Source: Candidatus Bathyarchaeota archaeon (GTDB lineage: Archaea; Thermoproteota; Bathyarchaeia; Bathyarchaeales; Bathycorpusculaceae). Taken from it: a DNA stretch of 64,000 bases. The notes beneath the pieces are model-generated. The model made no database searches and was not told the DNA's origin. It saw only the letters and a program-made list of their open reading frames with translations. The stretch is from NCBI GenBank assembly GCA_003151735.1, contig PLYI01000055.1, forward strand, positions 62,001-126,000, read 5' to 3'. This document shows, one piece after another, positions 137 to 52,878 of the stretch (position 1 is its first letter; the number at the start of each line of letters is the position of its first letter). A program made the position numbers and the translations under genes.

Positions 137-1285
137 GTGAGCGTTATGTTGCCTGATGAAGATAGCATCAATGGTATTCTGCGACCGTACATTCAGCCAT
201 GGTATGATTCCATCGAGGATCCGCAGAAGGCGCAGGATGGTGTGCTAGCTGACTTGTTGCAGGGATACGGTGGAACAGAATATGGCATAAGCCACAATGC
301 TTCTCAAGTTAAGAGCATTGCTGATTATCGGATAAATTTTCCCATAATTAGCTATTCAGGGCTCACTTCGCACCTGAATCAGGTAAAAGAACGCAGTTAC
401 AGGGCGTTTTTGGCTGAACCGCCTGAATGCTGGGTTATGACACGTGGCTCAACAGGAAAATCCAAAGTCCTACCCGCAACAAAAACCCACCTAAAACAAA
501 TCTACAGCTGCGGCGCAAGAGGACTCATAAACTACGCAGTAAGAAAAAAGAACTACGAAGTTTTTCTGGGCGTCATCCTCAACTTAAATTTTCCCTCAAA
601 CGTCCACACAATGAACGTCGACGGTAAACAAGTCAATTACGGCTACAGTTCAGGCACCTACGCAAGACTAAATCCCATGTTTGATAGGGTAAGTCTTTTG
701 CCTCGCCAAGAAGAAATCGATGCTTTAGGCTGCGGTGTCAGTAGGAAAGATTGGGAAAAACGCTTCGACCTCGCCTACCAAATGGCTCTTAACCAAAACG
801 TATCCGCAGCCATGGGCGTAACCCCTGTGATTTTGTCCTTTGCCAGATATGTTAAGCGCAAATACGGAAAAAGACCCGGTGACATATGGAAAACCCAGGC
901 GCTCTTCTGCACCAGCGTGCCCAAAATCCACTTCAAGTACGGTCCCACCCTCAAATGGTACTTCGGTGACGTGCCAATTGTGGAAATGTACACTGCGACG
1001 GAAGGAGTCTTCGGTCAACAACTCGACGATTTACCCTACATAACGCCAAACTACGACTCATACCTCTTCGAAGTTGCCACAGGCAAAGGAGTAAAAATTC
1101 TGCATGAACTCAAACGTGGCGAATGGGGCAGACTGATCGTTTCCTCATGTATGTTTCCACGCTATGACATCGGCGACTTGATTGAAGCGGCAGGAAAAAA
1201 CCATTACCGCGTGTTCGGAAGAAAAAAATCTTTAACGCTTCTGGAACATAGGCTTTACCGAGCGTTTTTAGGAAGGCTAATCTAA
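137..1285 (+). CDS. GH3-family acyl-adenylating enzyme (acyl-amido synthetase-like)
   Basis: The protein (382 aa) resembles the GH3 branch of the adenylate-forming superfamily, whose plant members adenylate a carboxylic acid and join it to an amino acid. Visible signatures are the Ser/Thr-rich P-loop-like TRGSTGKSKVLP (about residues 102-113) and MYTATEGVFGQQ (about 285-296), matching the GH3 motif with the conserved EG. Plant GH3 proteins are near 600 aa; this one stops soon after a GRKK segment, so the usual C-terminal cap domain appears absent. The start is GTG at 137; an in-frame ATG follows at 146. Its 3' end overlaps the convergent zinc-ribbon gene by 4 bp. The substrate cannot be read from the sequence. 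Confidence 0.8.
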   Translation: MSVMLPDEDSINGILRPYIQPWYDSIEDPQKAQDGVLADLLQGYGGTEYGISHNASQVKSIADYRINFPIISYSGLTSHLNQVKERSYRAFLAEPPECWVMTRGSTGKSKVLPATKTHLKQIYSCGARGLINYAVRKKNYEVFLGVILNLNFPSNVHTMNVDGKQVNYGYSSGTYARLNPMFDRVSLLPRQEEIDALGCGVSRKDWEKRFDLAYQMALNQNVSAAMGVTPVILSFARYVKRKYGKRPGDIWKTQALFCTSVPKIHFKYGPTLKWYFGDVPIVEMYTATEGVFGQQLDDLPYITPNYDSYLFEVATGKGVKILHELKRGEWGRLIVSSCMFPRYDIGDLIEAAGKNHYRVFGRKKSLTLLEHRLYRAFLGRLI

Positions 1286-1689
1286 GATGGCTGAGGAGAA
1301 CGCTTCCGTGCAATAAAAGCTACGTAGACCGCACCGATGATGATGATTATGCCAATTATTAGCAGCATAATGGGCCAGACTTGTCCTGAATCAGTGAAGT
1401 AACCACTTATTTGCAGCACGGAGAAAAGTCCAAACGTAATCAGGATTAAACCGCCGATTAAGTAGCCGATAAATCCTGCCTCGCCTTTCTCTTGTTTTTC
1501 GCCTTTCTCAGGACGCTCCTGTTTTTCATGTTTCTCATTCTTCTCTGATTTCTCGTCTCTTCTGTGGGATGGTGGAGCAGGCGCTGGCGCAGGTTGAGCT
1601 GACGGAACGGCTTTTAATGATGCCCCGCAGTGAGGGCAGAAAACCATGGTTTCATCAATTTTGTTGCCGCAATTCGGACAATACGACAT
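1282..1689 (-). CDS. Zinc-ribbon membrane protein
   Basis: A 135-aa protein with an N-terminal double-CxxC zinc ribbon (CPNC and CPHC, residues 5-22). A Pro/Ala-rich linker and a highly charged Lys/Glu segment (about 45-70) follow, then two membrane helices (about 72-95 and 103-126). The ribbon and charged linker should face the cytoplasm and the two helices form a hairpin anchor. This is a common archaeal arrangement of unknown function; related layouts occur in this window at 6388-7083, 13512-13844 and 52525-52878. It ends convergently with the GH3-like gene. Confidence 0.8.
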   Translation of the reverse strand: MSYCPNCGNKIDETMVFCPHCGASLKAVPSAQPAPAPAPPSHRRDEKSEKNEKHEKQERPEKGEKQEKGEAGFIGYLIGGLILITFGLFSVLQISGYFTDSGQVWPIMLLIIGIIIIIGAVYVAFIARKRSPQPS

Positions 1690-1808
1690 GCAAGCTCACC
1701 CTAAATACAGTTTATCAGGTCTAGGTATTTAAAATATGCACATGCCCTCTTGAAGAGAAAGATATATTTGCCAAATGCTCCATTCTCGGATAGAGAATAA
1801 ACATCTTG

Positions 1809-2306
1809 ATGAACATCTTTAATCCGCAGGCGTTAACAGACAAGAAAAAAGAAAATCTGTTTACTGCCATCTACGTCGGCGGCCTCTTCATCATCATAGC
1901 TTTGATTTATTACATCCATGTAGCTGACAACCTTTGGAATGGCGTGATAAATTTTTTCACCTCTCTCACCCTTGCGCCCGTACCCACCACAGGCATCTCT
2001 TTGCCTGCGCCCTCGGACCCGACTGCGTACATGTCTCTCTATAACGCTGCTTTCCAACTTGCTATAGCTATAGGTATCTTAGAAATCGTGATTTTAGCGC
2101 TAAGAGTTTGGTTGGGTTCACCTGTGTCACGTAAAGCGGAGACCATTGAAAACATTGTTTTCTGGCTGGGTGCAAGCTACTTAATAGTTGCTTACCTTGA
2201 AAACATGACGATAATGAGCGAATGGTTTGTTTTCTGGGCTGGAATAATCCTTATCTTCGGGTTAGCGTTGGTGGCTCGAGCATTTGTGGTTTTAGCCAAA
2301 CGATAA
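1809..2306 (+). CDS. Four-helix integral membrane protein, unknown
   Basis: The product (about 165 aa) has four hydrophobic segments, roughly at residues 20-40, 80-100, 113-130 and 135-160, with short charged loops. No catalytic motif is visible. I prefer ATG at 1809 over TTG at 1806. The upstream region (1690-1805) is shared with the divergent zinc-ribbon gene and contains TATA-like A/T stretches. It meets the glycosyltransferase operon tail to tail with no spacer. I do not recognise the family. Confidence 0.72.
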   Translation: MNIFNPQALTDKKKENLFTAIYVGGLFIIIALIYYIHVADNLWNGVINFFTSLTLAPVPTTGISLPAPSDPTAYMSLYNAAFQLAIAIGILEIVILALRVWLGSPVSRKAETIENIVFWLGASYLIVAYLENMTIMSEWFVFWAGIILIFGLALVARAFVVLAKR

Positions 2307-3050
2307 CTACTGCTTTTTTACTTTCAGTTTCCACCAAAGCGACATTATCTGCCTGAACATATTCCAAGAATCCTTGAATAAGTTAACTTTGGTAGCTTTG
2401 CCGCTTTTCCATTCCACAGCAATCTCTTTCACTCGGAAGCCCTGCCTTTGGGCTCTTACCAAGATTTCTGTATCCCAAAACCAATGCGTCGCCTCAACCT
2501 TATCGAGTAACTCCATGAGTGGTTCTCTTTTGAAAGCTTTAAAGCCGCATTGGTGGTCTCGAAGTTTAGAGCCTAACATGCGTCTGACGAGGAAATTGTA
2601 GGTTTTGGAGCTTATGCCTCTGCTGAAGGTGCGTTCAGCCTTGCTCTCAGCCATCATCCTTGAGCCAGTTGAGAAGTCGTATCCTTCAACGGTGATTGCT
2701 TCAACAAGGGGCTTTAGGTACCTGAGGTCTGTGGCTAAATCTAAATCCATGTAAACCAAAACTTCACCGTTGCTCTGCTTAAACGCGTTGTTTAGTGCGG
2801 TTCCTCTTCCCAAGCGTTTTTCACGGTGAATGTGCCTGACAAACGGGGTTTTCTGCATTAGTTCCTCTGTGCGTTCGGCGGTGCCGTCGGTGCTGCCGTC
2901 TTCAGCAATGATTACTTCATAAGAATCTGCGAACTCGGTTAGGGTTTGGATGGTTTTCTCAACTGCTGGCTGCAGGTAGTCGACTTCGTTGTAAGCAGGA
3001 AGCACCACTGATACCTGAACTGTCTTACTGGGTGTGTTTAGTGTTGTCAT
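2307..3050 (-). CDS. Family 2 glycosyltransferase, dolichol-phosphate sugar synthase-like
   Basis: A GT-A fold glycosyltransferase of the DPM1/DPG synthase type, which moves mannose or glucose from a nucleotide sugar to dolichol phosphate at the inner membrane face. Visible motifs are VVLPAYNE at the N-terminus, EDGSTDGT, the metal-binding MDLDLATD, and the family segment DHQCGFKAF. There is no C-terminal membrane helix, as in soluble DPM1. I chose ATG 3050, which overlaps the upstream stop by one base (TAATG); a longer start at 3077 exists. It is the last gene of a three-gene glycosylation operon and probably makes the lipid-linked sugar used by the PMT-like enzyme. Confidence 0.9.
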   Translation of the reverse strand: MTTLNTPSKTVQVSVVLPAYNEVDYLQPAVEKTIQTLTEFADSYEVIIAEDGSTDGTAERTEELMQKTPFVRHIHREKRLGRGTALNNAFKQSNGEVLVYMDLDLATDLRYLKPLVEAITVEGYDFSTGSRMMAESKAERTFSRGISSKTYNFLVRRMLGSKLRDHQCGFKAFKREPLMELLDKVEATHWFWDTEILVRAQRQGFRVKEIAVEWKSGKATKVNLFKDSWNMFRQIMSLWWKLKVKKQ

Positions 3051-4861
3051 TACGCGAAATACCAGCTGGGGAACCATCTAAGATAGCTGTGAATAAATGA
3101 AGTTGATATAGGTGCGCCTGAAATCACAGAGTAAAAGAGCGCAAACACCGCTACCGTCCCCGCGAATATGGCTATGGCAGCAACCTTTCCTATGCGTGTA
3201 TTCCAGTACTTGTTAATGAAATAGGTTATTGCTAAGCAAAGCAGGGGAACGCTGAGATAGAAATGGTAGATGTATGTTGCTCTGCCTATGAAAACGTAAG
3301 GCAACCAAGAGAAGACGAATACAACAACGATGAATATTGCGGGTAAATCCCATCCCTTCGCGCGTATACTGATGCGTTGACGTGTAGATGACTTTGATAT
3401 TCGGCTCCACAAGCTCCTCGCCAATTCTCTCCCGTGAATAGCCCTCTCCGTTAAAACAAGCATTAAGGCAAAGCCAACCCACCAAACAACTGGGTTACCA
3501 AGAACCGTGATCGTGGAAACCATGTTGTTGGGCAAGCCATACGATATGTCAAACCATCTAGGCACGGAACCACTTATGCCGAACATGAAGGGCCAACTCC
3601 ACCAAGGAGCCGAAGATGAGTCGACTACATTGCCTGAATGGAAAGCAAACATGGCAGACTGCAAATGAATAATTGTTGGGAATGAGTCACCAGCAAGCAT
3701 GTCTGGGATATAGGTTGCAAAGTAAATCGCGACTGCAATGCCGATGAAGCCTAAAAGCAACAGGAAGGGTCGGTCAAAGAAAGCAACGTACTTGTCGCTT
3801 AAGCTCTTTTTTAGTTTTGACAGATCCTTTATTCTGACCGCTATCAGCAGCGCAAGCAAGCCGGCTGCGCCGTAGAGTGTAAACCATTTGGTTGAGAATC
3901 CCAATGCGAAGAAGACTACGGCTAAAAACAGCGGTAACACAGAGGTCTTCTTAAACCCAGTTTTAACCACGTTCATGAAGTAAATCAGGAAGAACAGTTG
4001 TGAAAGCAGCGAGAAGAACACCACATAAGTGTCAACTGTGCCAATGCGTGCCATCGTGAAATGCATAAAATCAAAAGCCAACAAAAACGCAGCTGAAAAC
4101 CCGCCAATCCACGTACCAAACAGCTTCTTCCCCAACAGATACATCAGAGGAATCATCAAGGTAGCGAATATTACGCCCATTATTCGCCAGCCAAACGGTG
4201 TTTCACCGAAAAGTGCCACTCCCGTGGCTTCCATCAGCTTCCCAAGTGGCGGGTGGGTTCGTTCATTAGGTATCTGGTGGTTAACATAGTTTTCTGCAGA
4301 CCTGGCGAAGTAAACTTCGTCAAAATACATCTTTGACATGTAAGTCGGAGGAATCTCAAGTTTGTTCTGTTCATCAATCAGTTTTCCTAAGGTTGGGTCG
4401 GTTGTGTTTTCGCCTGTGATTGCAACTATGGGTATTTGCTGGTTGGTTTGGCTTTCTGCTCCGATTTCCGCGATTTGTATGAAGGGTGAGAGGGGCTGGT
4501 CTGTGGGATTGGTTACGCCCCAGTTAGAGAACATCGGTTGAGAATCATAATTTACTGCTGTGACATTGAACTCTAAAAACTGAGTAGTCACACCTAAACC
4601 TATGGTTTGGTAAACTGAGTAGTCTGTGCCTCTTGGCTGCAAAGCAAATTGTCCCTGAGAGCTCCAGTTTCCAGGAACCCCCGAATACACGGTGACTGAT
4701 GCGTTGCCGCTGTGAACCCAAAAATAAACGTTCTGAACCTGCTGGTTCGAACCAAAGTTAATGTAAAAACTCTCTTGTGACGTAGTCTGCCAATTCGTGA
4801 CTGGATACGCAATTGAACCCACGTTCCAAGAGGCTATCCCAAAGAAAACTATCGATAACAA
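3050..4861 (-). CDS. PMT-family (GT39) protein O-mannosyltransferase
   Basis: A polytopic GT-C enzyme related to dolichyl-phosphate-mannose:protein mannosyltransferases. The luminal catalytic DE pair is in MYFDEVYFARSAENY, followed by the hallmark HPPLGK. About ten membrane helices follow. Residues 25-150 form an extracytoplasmic domain. The start is odd: TTG 4861 is the only standard start, yet the frame continues upstream to a stop at 4916-4918, adding a lysine-rich segment (KITKKD) suited to a cytoplasmic N-terminus. A GAGGTGA site is ideally spaced from an ATT codon at 4909, so initiation at ATT is possible (619 aa instead of 603). It sits between a GT87-like gene and the dolichol-phosphate sugar synthase. 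Confidence 0.9.
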   Translation of the reverse strand: MLSIVFFGIASWNVGSIAYPVTNWQTTSQESFYINFGSNQQVQNVYFWVHSGNASVTVYSGVPGNWSSQGQFALQPRGTDYSVYQTIGLGVTTQFLEFNVTAVNYDSQPMFSNWGVTNPTDQPLSPFIQIAEIGAESQTNQQIPIVAITGENTTDPTLGKLIDEQNKLEIPPTYMSKMYFDEVYFARSAENYVNHQIPNERTHPPLGKLMEATGVALFGETPFGWRIMGVIFATLMIPLMYLLGKKLFGTWIGGFSAAFLLAFDFMHFTMARIGTVDTYVVFFSLLSQLFFLIYFMNVVKTGFKKTSVLPLFLAVVFFALGFSTKWFTLYGAAGLLALLIAVRIKDLSKLKKSLSDKYVAFFDRPFLLLLGFIGIAVAIYFATYIPDMLAGDSFPTIIHLQSAMFAFHSGNVVDSSSAPWWSWPFMFGISGSVPRWFDISYGLPNNMVSTITVLGNPVVWWVGFALMLVLTERAIHGRELARSLWSRISKSSTRQRISIRAKGWDLPAIFIVVVFVFSWLPYVFIGRATYIYHFYLSVPLLCLAITYFINKYWNTRIGKVAAIAIFAGTVAVFALFYSVISGAPISTSFIHSYLRWFPSWYFA

Positions 4862-49573: not shown

Positions 49574-50908
49574 TTATCCTGTCCCGCTACATTGGTGTTC
49601 TTTGTTTTGTAGCTCCAGTGGGCATCCGCCACCACAAATCTGCAGTTGCGAGCAATCCTTGCATTTTTCCTCGGCGTATTCTCGGTTGCGCAGCTTTTCT
49701 GCTAAGGGGTGATGCCAAATTTTCTCCCAGGGTTCTGTTAGGATGTTTCCGAGGCTTTCAAAGTAGCTTTGGCAAGGGTAAACGTCGCCGTTTGGTCCCA
49801 CGCTAGCGTTTATCATGGCTGCCGTGCAGGTTTTAACGCCTAAACCCAACTGCACAGGGTCAAATTGACAGTACTGCGTGGGTGTATACCAGAGGAATTT
49901 TAAGCCAATCATGTGGGCTTTGTCTCGAATTTGAGGCAAAAGGGCGTTTAATTCTTCGATGGATAGTGCGAATTCTTCGCTTGCAGCAGGTGCTTTGCCT
50001 GAGTAGATTAGGCTGTTGCAGCCGAAAGCGCCAACGCCCAGACTTTTGATGTAATCTATAGTTGTCAAAAAGTCGGCTGCGTTGTGTTTGCTAAGAGTGG
50101 TGTTGGTTGAAACGTAAATTTTCGATTGCACCGCATTTCGGATTCCCGCAAGGGTTTCTTTCCAGCTGCCTTTTGCTCCAGTCATTAAATCGTGTATTAG
50201 TGGCTTGTGGGACTCCAAAGTTATCTGCACAAAGTCTAACCCTGACTTCTCAAGCACATCAACGTAGGCTTTATCCTTGAACCTTCGCCCATTACTAATC
50301 AAACCCGTAACCATGCCCTTGTTCTGAGCGTACATGAGAAGCTCAGGCAAATCCTCCCGCGTTGTGGGTTCGCCGCCCGTAAAGGTTAAAATGAAAACGC
50401 CGATTTCACTGAGTTTATCAATTACGCTTTTCCATTGCACTGTTGAAAGTTCGGGTGTTTCATGTGGTCCGCCAGCATAGCAGTGGACGCAGTCATTTTG
50501 GCATCTAAAGGTTAACGCTAAATCCATCCGCAGGGGCGCTGAATACTGGTGAGAAAACGGCTCTTCTTTTTCAATTTCCAAAAACGTGACAGGATCAATC
50601 TTTTCGGTTTGTGCCAACGTGCTGATAGTGTAGACTAGTTTCTCGTAATCGGTTTTCGCTGTTTCAGCGCTGACACGGTACATACGTCGAATCTTTTTAA
50701 TAACTTCTTTGTGAGACAAGCCCTGCATGAAAAAATATGCTAACGCTGTAGCAGTATGGTTTAAGTGCAAAACCGAATTGGCGTTGATTACCATGACTCC
50801 TTGTCCACTTTGTTCGATGCGTAGTTGAAGCGACATTCCTGCAAACTTGTCTGTCCCACGGTAAGTAAAACGTCCTGTTGGAACCTTCTTTTTCCTAAAA
50901 AAACTCAT
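49574..50908 (-). CDS. Radical SAM/SPASM maturase with N-terminal PqqD-like domain
   Basis: A 444-aa enzyme. Residues 28-110 form a PqqD/RRE-like winged helix (MVINANSVLHLNHTATALAY, SHKEVIKKIRRMYRVS), the peptide-recognition domain of RiPP enzymes. The radical SAM site CQNDCVHC (Cys 136, 140, 143) binds the SAM cluster. The C-terminal SPASM domain carries CQSY (about 373), CKDC, CGGGC and a last Cys near 440 for auxiliary clusters. Such enzymes crosslink Cys thiols or other side chains of a substrate tail. The start ATG follows the stop of the DUF2207 gene with no gap, and that protein ends in Cys repeats, so it is the probable substrate. Confidence 0.9.
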   Translation of the reverse strand: MSFFRKKKVPTGRFTYRGTDKFAGMSLQLRIEQSGQGVMVINANSVLHLNHTATALAYFFMQGLSHKEVIKKIRRMYRVSAETAKTDYEKLVYTISTLAQTEKIDPVTFLEIEKEEPFSHQYSAPLRMDLALTFRCQNDCVHCYAGGPHETPELSTVQWKSVIDKLSEIGVFILTFTGGEPTTREDLPELLMYAQNKGMVTGLISNGRRFKDKAYVDVLEKSGLDFVQITLESHKPLIHDLMTGAKGSWKETLAGIRNAVQSKIYVSTNTTLSKHNAADFLTTIDYIKSLGVGAFGCNSLIYSGKAPAASEEFALSIEELNALLPQIRDKAHMIGLKFLWYTPTQYCQFDPVQLGLGVKTCTAAMINASVGPNGDVYPCQSYFESLGNILTEPWEKIWHHPLAEKLRNREYAEEKCKDCSQLQICGGGCPLELQNKEHQCSGTG

Positions 50909-52531
50909 TTAATGGCCACCTCCACCTGCACAGGCGCAAGCGCATGAAACGCAGGCACAGGCACATGCTGCACACGCACAAACGCAGTCCGCTTTAGGAT
51001 GAGCTGGATCATGGGAAGTTTTGGGCGGTGGCGGAACGATGGCGTTGGCGAATTTTTCTATGTTAACTACAATGTTGTTCGAGGTTTTCTCTACGGATGT
51101 GGCTATGTTGTTTGCGAAGTCGGCGCCTGGAATCTTTGGCGGCGGACCCGACTGAGCTGGCGCGTTAACGTTTGGTGTGTACGTGGGGTTAGGATGATAG
51201 GTTGTGTAGCCGTACCACCACCAGAACCACAAGGGACTTGGCTGAATAACCTTGTCTCTGAATACAGTTTCAGTGCGGGTTCGCTGGTTGGGGTCAAGCA
51301 ATAGCCAAAGCAGCTGCTCATCATAAGCGTTCGCTGCCAACTCAACCGTTCCAGCCTGCTCCACCTGTGTCCATGCTTGAGCTGCAATTTTTCTGTAATA
51401 GTCCACGGTGTCTTTTCGGCTGTAACCCTGCAGTTTCTGCTCAACCGTATCACGGAGAAACATGATTGTATGTGCAAGTTTTTCTTCGTCAAGTGAGCCG
51501 TCGGGTTTGAGAGAATTTAAAAAGTCAATTTCGTAGTATCGCAGGGGATTGTCTTTTGGACCTGTTTTGTTATCAAAGGGCGGTAGCACTTTTAGTTTGA
51601 GCGAGGGTTTGGTTTCTTGTGCCCAGACTGCTCTTTTCTGCAGTAGGCTGTAGAGTATTTCGGTAACTATCTGCGGCGGCTTTAGGTCAAGAAGATATGA
51701 GGCTTCAACTGCGGTTAAGCCGCGTTTAATGCCAAGGGTTTCCATGCTGATTTTTGGCGATGCGTAGTTGCTTTTGCGAATCATAAAGATGATTACGCCA
51801 AAAATGGCGATTGCAAATAATACGCCGACAACTCCTATAGCTATTCCCAAAGGTCCAAAGTTGAATCCGCCTGAAGTAGGAACATAATTCGGTAAAAATC
51901 TGGCTGGAAAAGATACGCCGACCATGAACTGCTCGTTTGGTTGTATGACTAGTTTTTCCCAGTAAACGGCCAAGCGCCCATCAACCACTGCGGTGCCATT
52001 ATAAAAGTTCGAAGTAGTTTTCACATCGCTTACGGTTGTATCTGGGGGCAAAACAATCTGCAAACGCAAATCGCTAATCGGCACATCGCTTATCCACTGG
52101 GGGATAAACTGCATGCCAAAGTTGCCTGGGTTCTGGGTATCGTTGCTAATCATGCCTGCAACGTTGGTTGTAACCGTAAACCACACGGAGTTTCCAGCTG
52201 TTAAAGGCTGGTTTAACGTGACGTCGACTCGATAATCGCTGCCGCTGTCGGCTCTGGCAACCTGAAGCACGTTACCATATTGGTCCGTTGCTTGGCCTGG
52301 TGTATAGTCGCTTTTTGGTTGACCAACATAGAATCCGTGCATAACTCCCGAAGAAACAGACACAGTAATGTTGTAGGTTAAGTCGATTGTGCCATCTTGG
52401 TTGATGAAGATTTGCGACCACTCATGATCCACACTGTAAACCAAGCTTTGCGCATGGATTGCACTTGCCGCGGAAACAGCCAACGTCAAAGTCAGCAATA
52501 AAACTAAAAGAAGTGGAAATTTCCTTACCAT
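50909..52531 (-). CDS. DUF2207 membrane protein with a C-terminal Cys-heptad tail
   Basis: A 540-aa protein: signal peptide (1-27), an extracellular DUF2207 beta domain (about 30-215), one membrane helix (226-251), then a cytoplasmic region. The C-terminus has three tandem 7-residue repeats, CVCACAA, CACACVS and CACACAG (Cys 516, 518, 520; 523, 525, 527; 530, 532, 534), then GGGH. Most DUF2207 proteins end in Gly-rich tails with no such Cys array. Nine Cys with strict heptad phasing look like a modification substrate or a metal site. The gene abuts the radical SAM/SPASM gene and overlaps the zinc-ribbon gene upstream by 7 bp. Confidence 0.88.
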   Translation of the reverse strand: MVRKFPLLLVLLLTLTLAVSAASAIHAQSLVYSVDHEWSQIFINQDGTIDLTYNITVSVSSGVMHGFYVGQPKSDYTPGQATDQYGNVLQVARADSGSDYRVDVTLNQPLTAGNSVWFTVTTNVAGMISNDTQNPGNFGMQFIPQWISDVPISDLRLQIVLPPDTTVSDVKTTSNFYNGTAVVDGRLAVYWEKLVIQPNEQFMVGVSFPARFLPNYVPTSGGFNFGPLGIAIGVVGVLFAIAIFGVIIFMIRKSNYASPKISMETLGIKRGLTAVEASYLLDLKPPQIVTEILYSLLQKRAVWAQETKPSLKLKVLPPFDNKTGPKDNPLRYYEIDFLNSLKPDGSLDEEKLAHTIMFLRDTVEQKLQGYSRKDTVDYYRKIAAQAWTQVEQAGTVELAANAYDEQLLWLLLDPNQRTRTETVFRDKVIQPSPLWFWWWYGYTTYHPNPTYTPNVNAPAQSGPPPKIPGADFANNIATSVEKTSNNIVVNIEKFANAIVPPPPKTSHDPAHPKADCVCACAACACACVSCACACAGGGGH

Positions 52532-52878
52532 TTTGGTTCCTCAGTAACCTCAAACGTGGTACCGCAGTAGGGACACTTAACGTATGGCACGCCTGACTCA
52601 ATTCTTATTTGGTCGGCGCTTATAGAGCCGCCGCAGTTGGGACATTTAATTTGGGCTGCCGCCATCTGCCCCGAAACCTCTAAACGCTGGATAACCGTTT
52701 TGGGTTTGCGCGTGGTGTAGTAGATGCCGACGATTACTGCGAGCCCAACTATGAAGAGGATGCCGCTGGTAGCCAGCCTTTCTGTAGTGGCTTGGACAGA
52801 AGCGGCAAGCGCAAAGATAACTGCAAAAAAGAACAAAACCGCCGCCGCTATGCCCCCAAAGATAGGAAGGAGTCTCAT
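52525..52878 (-). CDS. Two-helix membrane protein with C-terminal zinc ribbon
   Basis: A 117-aa protein with helices near 5-28 and 38-58, then KCPNCGGSISADQIRIES and VKCPYCGTTFEVTEE, a complete zinc ribbon facing the cytoplasm. It is the first gene of the radical-SAM operon and overlaps DUF2207 by 7 bp. It could serve as a membrane chaperone or docking protein for the Cys-repeat tail; this is inference from position. Confidence 0.75.
   Translation of the reverse strand: MRLLPIFGGIAAAVLFFFAVIFALAASVQATTERLATSGILFIVGLAVIVGIYYTTRKPKTVIQRLEVSGQMAAAQIKCPNCGGSISADQIRIESGVPYVKCPYCGTTFEVTEEPKW

Follow-up and report, generated by a model that had tools for sequence, protein, structure and literature searches.

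What does a radical S-adenosylmethionine (SAM) enzyme act on when its gene begins directly at the stop codon of a gene for a membrane protein with a Cys-Ala tail? This question is raised by a 64,000-nucleotide stretch of contig PLYI01000055.1 from a Candidatus Bathyarchaeota archaeon, hereafter the window, in which three contiguous minus-strand genes encode a zinc-ribbon membrane protein, a membrane protein ending in a Cys-rich tail, and a radical-SAM enzyme. The zinc-ribbon gene overlaps the start of the membrane-protein gene by 7 bases, and the stop codon of the latter (50911-50909) touches the ATG of the enzyme gene at 50908; the latter contact had been described in an initial annotation made from the window's sequence. 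That annotation proposed the tail as the enzyme's substrate. Our comparisons suggest, with a probability of about three in four, that the three-gene cassette installs a modification of the type found in ribosomally synthesised and post-translationally modified peptides (RiPPs) on an integral membrane protein, at its cytoplasmic C-terminus. The pairing of tail and enzyme, the near-invariant tail and the enzyme architecture are read from sequence, and the topology is predicted.

Tail and enzyme across genomes

We scanned species genomes for the enzyme and obtained 364 relatives, the best 80 of which were used for locus counts. These 80 loci came from Bathyarchaeota, Chloroflexota, Coatesbacteria, Zymogenaceae, Edwardsbacteria, UBP2 and others. 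A tail-bearing protein was encoded upstream on the same strand and contig in 73 of them, so that a Cys-rich core lies beside the maturase gene, as is expected of a ranthipeptide or sactipeptide system. The other seven comprised five genomes with one tail elsewhere, one locus masked by Ns and one genome in which no tail was detected. Among 257 Bathyarchaeia genomes, the membrane protein was found in 76, the enzyme in 72 and both in 71, that is, in 71 of the 77 genomes having either. The five genomes with the membrane protein but no enzyme were accounted for by contig ends (G069, G074 and G167), an N-masked enzyme (G184) and G112, and the sole enzyme-only genome carried an N-run upstream. At the G112 locus (L201), the open reading frame (ORF) of the membrane protein was cut to 145 residues and the radical-SAM gene was gone, an apparent joint loss of tail protein and enzyme as read from the sequence. 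In the window's genus, 14 genomes had both genes and 18 had neither, and the pair is therefore gained or lost as a unit. Similarly, the 20 real tails found among 301 Chloroflexota genomes and the 20 enzymes (E<1e-140) fell in one and the same set of 20 genomes. The divergence of the enzyme was correlated with that of the membrane protein (r 0.97 in archaea and 0.85 in bacteria). The opposite pattern, tails that mostly lack a radical-SAM gene nearby, would have spoken against the tail as substrate; it was looked for and not found: co-occurrence was near-perfect in both Bathyarchaeia and Chloroflexota, whether the genes were linked or unlinked.

We then compared the tails. In the window the 540-residue protein ends in CVCACAA-CACACVS-CACACAG-GGGH, exactly the three seven-residue repeats plus GGGH of the initial annotation, but the heptad period was confined to this sequence. 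Relatives end in CVCACAA-CACACACVS-CACACAGGG or CACACACAGCACACAGGGR, which rules out the heptad as the conserved unit; on the tails compared, that unit is the Cys-Ala dipeptide. All 27 bacterial tails were the identical peptide CACACAGCACACAGGGR, encoded by 27 distinct DNA sequences. Its 17 codons showed 9.9 synonymous and 0 non-synonymous differences per pair, against 33 non-synonymous differences in the 45 preceding codons. Because one peptide is encoded by 27 different DNA sequences with 0 non-synonymous differences, the tail is not a product of chance, and these codon comparisons indicate extreme selection at the protein level. Between archaea and bacteria, identity was 80% over residues 521-540, 11% over the preceding 20 residues and 16-47% in other regions. 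One match to the tail pattern (G438, L145) was discarded, since no coding tail exists there. At two further loci (L248 and L249), radical-SAM-like genes lie upstream of the tail protein (CACAGCACACACAGGGR and CACAGCACACAGGGR), and the segment before the tail is unlike the usual leader-like helix.

A second tail class (ACHSAC) is carried by a membrane protein whose homology to the first was seen as a profile match over 442 columns. In one Chloroflexota class, a pattern search detected this tail in 19 of 140 genomes, and the enzyme was adjacent in 17 of the 19 loci; in the remaining two it was not seen within the short stretch examined. The second-class enzymes share 32-39% identity with those of the first class and carry a clear RiPP recognition element (RRE; E 2e-9). 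The enzyme clade thus switches with the tail class, and the scaffold stays constant. Moreover, one Anaerolineales locus (L076) encodes a 1139-residue Ser/Thr kinase-AAA protein (990-4409, plus strand) that ends in a leader-like helix and a CACACA tail, 421 bases upstream of the enzyme gene, and the standard zinc-ribbon/tail pair is found elsewhere in this genome. Leader and tail, present on an unrelated kinase beside the enzyme, are thus a portable module. Taken together, the co-occurrence, the separate enzyme clade that accompanies the second tail class and the kinase-borne tail beside an enzyme give good support to the proposal that the tail is the substrate.

Enzyme, membrane protein and partner genes

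The window enzyme matched the Pfam families Radical_SAM (5e-23) and SPASM (1.5e-11), in agreement with its first description as a radical SAM enzyme with a SPASM C-terminus. Its PqqD-like N-terminus was less clear-cut: PF05402 stayed below threshold in the window protein (E 0.008; 16.9 bits against a gathering score of 23.4) and exceeded the cut-off in orthologues (33.7 bits in L078 and 30.6 bits in L075; E-values 4.8e-8, that of L078, and 4.3e-7) and in second-class enzymes (38.0 and 31.2 bits against the same 23.4). In the AlphaFold model (mean predicted local distance difference test score, pLDDT, 85.9), this region consists of strands at 12-49 and helices at 51-100. The folds nearest to the predicted enzyme were SkfB, SuiB and CteB, over about 413-465 columns, all of them RRE-containing peptide maturases, and the enzyme thus has the RRE-radical SAM-SPASM/twitch architecture of such maturases. 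The CxxxCxxC motif was invariant in 76 of 76 aligned enzymes, as were the SPASM cysteines listed in Table 1 and C347 just outside that set, and a seventh C-terminal Cys was present in only 52 of the 76. None of the curated NCBIfam radical SAM/SPASM cut-offs (SkfB, PqqE, mycofactocin, ACGX, NirJ, AhbC/D, GeoRSP and others) was reached; the best score was 136.3 bits against a cut-off of 500, and bacterial members likewise stayed below. A named NCBIfam family is thereby ruled out, and the reaction cannot be named by homology. A defence role was also rejected, because PADLOC returned generic viperin-like radical-SAM similarity only and, for L076, generic kinase similarity only.

The membrane protein scored 17.7 bits against DUF2207 (PF09972), under the Pfam cut-off of 24.4. 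The DUF2207 label first given to it therefore fails for full membership and stands for a remote relative, with likeness in the N-terminal ectodomain; a second-class relative (L205) passes the cut-off at 25.5 bits. A fold search with the membrane protein returned only ectodomain likeness to the N-domains of ribophorin I and M1 aminopeptidase; the TM-scores were low, and the likeness says little about function. A single transmembrane helix is followed by Arg-Lys, conserved helices are predicted at 469-498, and the tail is predicted to be disordered. On this topology, the C-terminal half and the tail are predicted to face the cytoplasm, the same side as the enzyme, which supports the earlier placement of the tail at the cytoplasmic end of an integral membrane protein. 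In the leader-like segment, P468, G469, F472, A473, V488 and F494 were invariant or nearly so, and the leader-like helix is retained in the kinase fusion of L076. We propose that this segment may be the region bound by the RRE.

Table 1. Features of the cassette in the window and of related loci; coordinates given with an L number refer to that locus.
Feature	Position	Strand	Details
Zinc-ribbon membrane protein gene	52525..52878	-	117 residues; two transmembrane helices; C-terminal CPNCGG...CPYCGTTFEVTEEPKW; match to MJ0042 zinc finger
DUF2207-like membrane protein, substrate candidate	50909..52531	-	540 residues; signal peptide, beta-sandwich ectodomain, one transmembrane helix, cytoplasmic domain (predicted side), leader-like helices, Cys-Ala tail
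Transmembrane helix of DUF2207-like protein	51788..51844	-	residues 230-248, then R-K
Leader-like conserved helical segment	51032..51151	-	residues ~461-500; PGADFANNIATSVE...NIEKFANAI
Tail, proposed modification site	50912..50986	-	residues 516-540; CVCACAACACACVSCACACAGGGGH
RRE-radical SAM-SPASM enzyme, proposed tail maturase	49574..50908	-	444 residues
PqqD/RRE-like N-terminal domain of enzyme	50609..50875	-	residues 12-100
CxxxCxxC motif, SAM-binding cluster	50480..50503	-	C136, C140, C143
SPASM cysteines, auxiliary clusters	49622..49828	-	C361, C379, C416, C419, C425, C429; Pfam SPASM
Pseudo-radical-SAM paralogues	L089 7329-8483; L101 7322-8479; L094 10408-11559		and 15 other bacterial loci
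Second-class DUF2207-type membrane proteins	L205 4049-5794; L204 7090-8808	-	also L228-L246; beside a separate RRE-radical SAM-SPASM clade

The zinc-ribbon gene was present in 71 of the 257 Bathyarchaeia genomes, including 70 of the 76 with the membrane protein, and normally lies directly upstream of it. It is found at bacterial loci too, where the proteins end in ...YQLTEEPKW. The zinc-ribbon gene is thus a real third component and a near-constant partner, as the initial annotation had suggested it might be from its presence in the cluster. The HAD/dolichol-kinase fusion, suggested there as another helper, did not hold up as a cassette member: it was seen in 15 of 43 archaeal and none of 37 bacterial loci, and Pfam detects its HAD part only. 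GIY-YIG and other archaeal neighbours were set aside as lineage-local. In Anaerolineales the operon runs zinc ribbon, tail protein, enzyme and a pseudo-enzyme paralogue. This paralogue, found at 18 bacterial loci, retains the PqqD domain and a GGEP motif, lacks CxxxCxxC and has almost no Cys; we infer that it is probably a non-catalytic presenter of the tail. A class I methyltransferase gene occurs at L124 4646-5404 and follows the enzyme gene at many bacterial loci. It lies near the enzyme or, where tail and enzyme genes are split, near the tail protein, and may be one more component of the bacterial system. In both second-class loci read at length, a coiled-coil protein of ~390-421 residues is encoded after the enzyme (L204 4462-5727, L205 1477-2649, both minus strand).

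Proposed chemistry and its alternatives

On these comparisons, a permanent membrane protein probably has its tail chemically remodelled in the cell. The RRE would grip the conserved helices just before the tail, and a flexible linker would allow the tail into the active site; in Anaerolineales, the catalytically dead RRE-bearing paralogue probably helps to present it. The 5′-deoxyadenosyl radical would abstract hydrogen from tail residues, most likely Ala, and Cys thiolates held by a SPASM cluster would attack to give several thioether links, the chemistry that we favour. The product would be a compact cap or ligand site that remains on the membrane protein. Its role, the weakest step of the model and our best guess, is likely the arming of a sensor or scaffold that is anchored in the membrane and cooperates with the zinc-ribbon protein.

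Several points weigh against this interpretation. All of its support comes from sequence comparison and predicted structures, nearly all sequences derive from metagenome-assembled genomes, and the Fisher p-values for co-occurrence (4e-56 and 1e-31) ignore phylogeny. The best NCBIfam scores of the enzyme go to the heme-related NirJ2/AhbD as well as to PqqE. Finally, no protease or exporter was recognised among the conserved neighbour groups (judged by sequence, not all annotated), in contrast to classical RiPP clusters; this lack fits a permanent modification in which the tail stays attached.

The strongest competitor, which we consider unlikely but serious, keeps the same substrate and changes the chemistry to epimerisation of the alternating Ala residues, Cys oxidation or C-C links; alternating L-Cys/D-Ala would form a thiol-lined helix. 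The strict Cys-Ala alternation and the near-absolute conservation of Ala would suit it, and SPASM enzymes are chemically diverse, with C-C links made by SuiB and epimerisation by EpeE (PMC8326336), both of which appeared in the fold search. However, auxiliary clusters are absent from proteusin epimerases, and EpeE contains a total of only two clusters (PMC8326336), whereas the present enzyme keeps a nearly full SPASM Cys set. Thioether formers, SkfB and CteB, are also among the closest solved structures, which argues for the thioether route.

Less probable still is a tail that serves unmodified as a metal- or Fe-S-binding site, with the enzyme acting on another target, such as the zinc-ribbon protein or a small molecule, within one shared pathway. 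CxC runs are reminiscent of thiolate clusters of the metallothionein kind, the zinc-ribbon gene matches the enzyme closely in constancy, and the second tail class adds His. Such a site, however, would leave unexplained the switch of enzyme clade between tail classes, the position of a kinase-borne tail beside an enzyme, and the RRE of the enzyme. We regard as very improbable that a heme-like cofactor or a membrane lipid is the enzyme's target and that the membrane protein serves as a scaffold. The highest NCBIfam scores, to NirJ2 and AhbD/AhbC, point that way, as do GDGT-MAS among the structural matches and genes found downstream in some bacteria, namely the methyltransferase and, in L094, lipid-like genes (judged by sequence only). 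These scores, however, lie far under the cut-offs (136 of 500 bits), the NirJ2, AhbD and AhbC models align to the radical SAM/SPASM part and not to the RRE, the lipid-like genes fall outside the groups conserved in archaea, and the invariant tail would go unexplained. An origin of the tail in low-complexity sequence or faulty assembly is refuted by the single peptide encoded by 27 different DNA sequences, and such tails also recur in archaea and bacteria on contigs independent of one another, even though repetitive DNA is prone to spurious ORFs and overlapping frames through the tail do lengthen the enzyme ORF spuriously in some loci.

Relation to known systems

The closest published idea is that of multinuclear non-heme iron-dependent oxidative (MNIO, DUF692) enzymes, whose proposed substrates include TIGR04222 membrane proteins with C-proximal Cys-rich regions (PMC12452194). 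In both cases an integral membrane protein has a C-terminal tail that is rich in Gly/Ser and bears Cys, and is encoded together with a modifying enzyme of RiPP type, an MNIO there and a radical SAM enzyme here. TIGR04222 tails are irregular and predicted to be periplasmic, C-proximal Cys is missing from more than a quarter of these proteins, they occur mostly in Actinomycetota, and the link to the enzyme is not systematic (PMC12452194). In contrast, the present tails are predicted to be cytoplasmic, are near-invariant, have a near-obligate radical-SAM partner and occur in archaea and bacteria. The TIGR04222 model (cut-off 43 bits) gave weak matches in 5 of 62 members of the present family (best E 1.1e-4) and 22.8 bits for the second-class protein of L205; the window protein had no match at E-values up to 1.

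Ranthipeptide/SCIFF and sactipeptide maturases (CteB and SkfB) share the RRE-radical SAM-SPASM/twitch architecture and a Cys-containing ribosomal substrate, and are the best structural matches, although the NCBIfam SkfB model gave the window enzyme 93.9 of 300 bits. Their substrates are short free peptides that carry a leader, whereas the core here is the C-terminal tail of a membrane protein of ~540 residues. The system thus works like an RRE-dependent radical-SAM RiPP and lacks the defining short free precursor with an N-terminal leader. The ACGX radical SAM/SPASM system (TIGR04340; 67 of 400 bits for the window enzyme) likewise has short Cys-containing repeats as its proposed SPASM target, carried by a small peptide. 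QhpD is a radical-SAM enzyme that forms thioethers inside a protein that retains them (PMC5682303, PMC8326336), but these are Cys-to-Asp/Glu links in a redox-enzyme subunit, that of quinohemoprotein amine dehydrogenase, which has no Cys-Ala tail or membrane anchor. In the literature searched we found a Streptococcus mutans DUF2207 study on stress tolerance and biofilm (PMC10457818), no paper combining DUF2207 with radical SAM and no description of the tail/enzyme pair, in line with the early impression that the combination was undescribed.

Beyond the window, we hold it moderately likely that protein-anchored RiPPs form a pan-prokaryotic class to which these loci belong. Its near-invariant Cys-repeat tails, of at least two types (CACACA and ACHSAC), carried on one DUF2207-like scaffold and once on a Ser/Thr kinase-ATPase, would each be rebuilt by their own RRE-radical SAM-SPASM enzyme and never released; in the cytoplasm they would be a lasting cofactor or sensor element. 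The radical-SAM chemistry of RiPPs has been associated mainly with small released peptides; here the corresponding enzyme architecture is coupled, in both archaea and bacteria, to a tail that belongs to a resident membrane protein and has hardly changed in sequence between the two domains of life. Peptide-centred mining tools seek short precursors and would miss such tails. The two tail classes with cognate enzymes, together with the portable module, could become a protein-tagging system. If the tail is modified, it would represent a new route to a protein-bound cofactor or sensor element.

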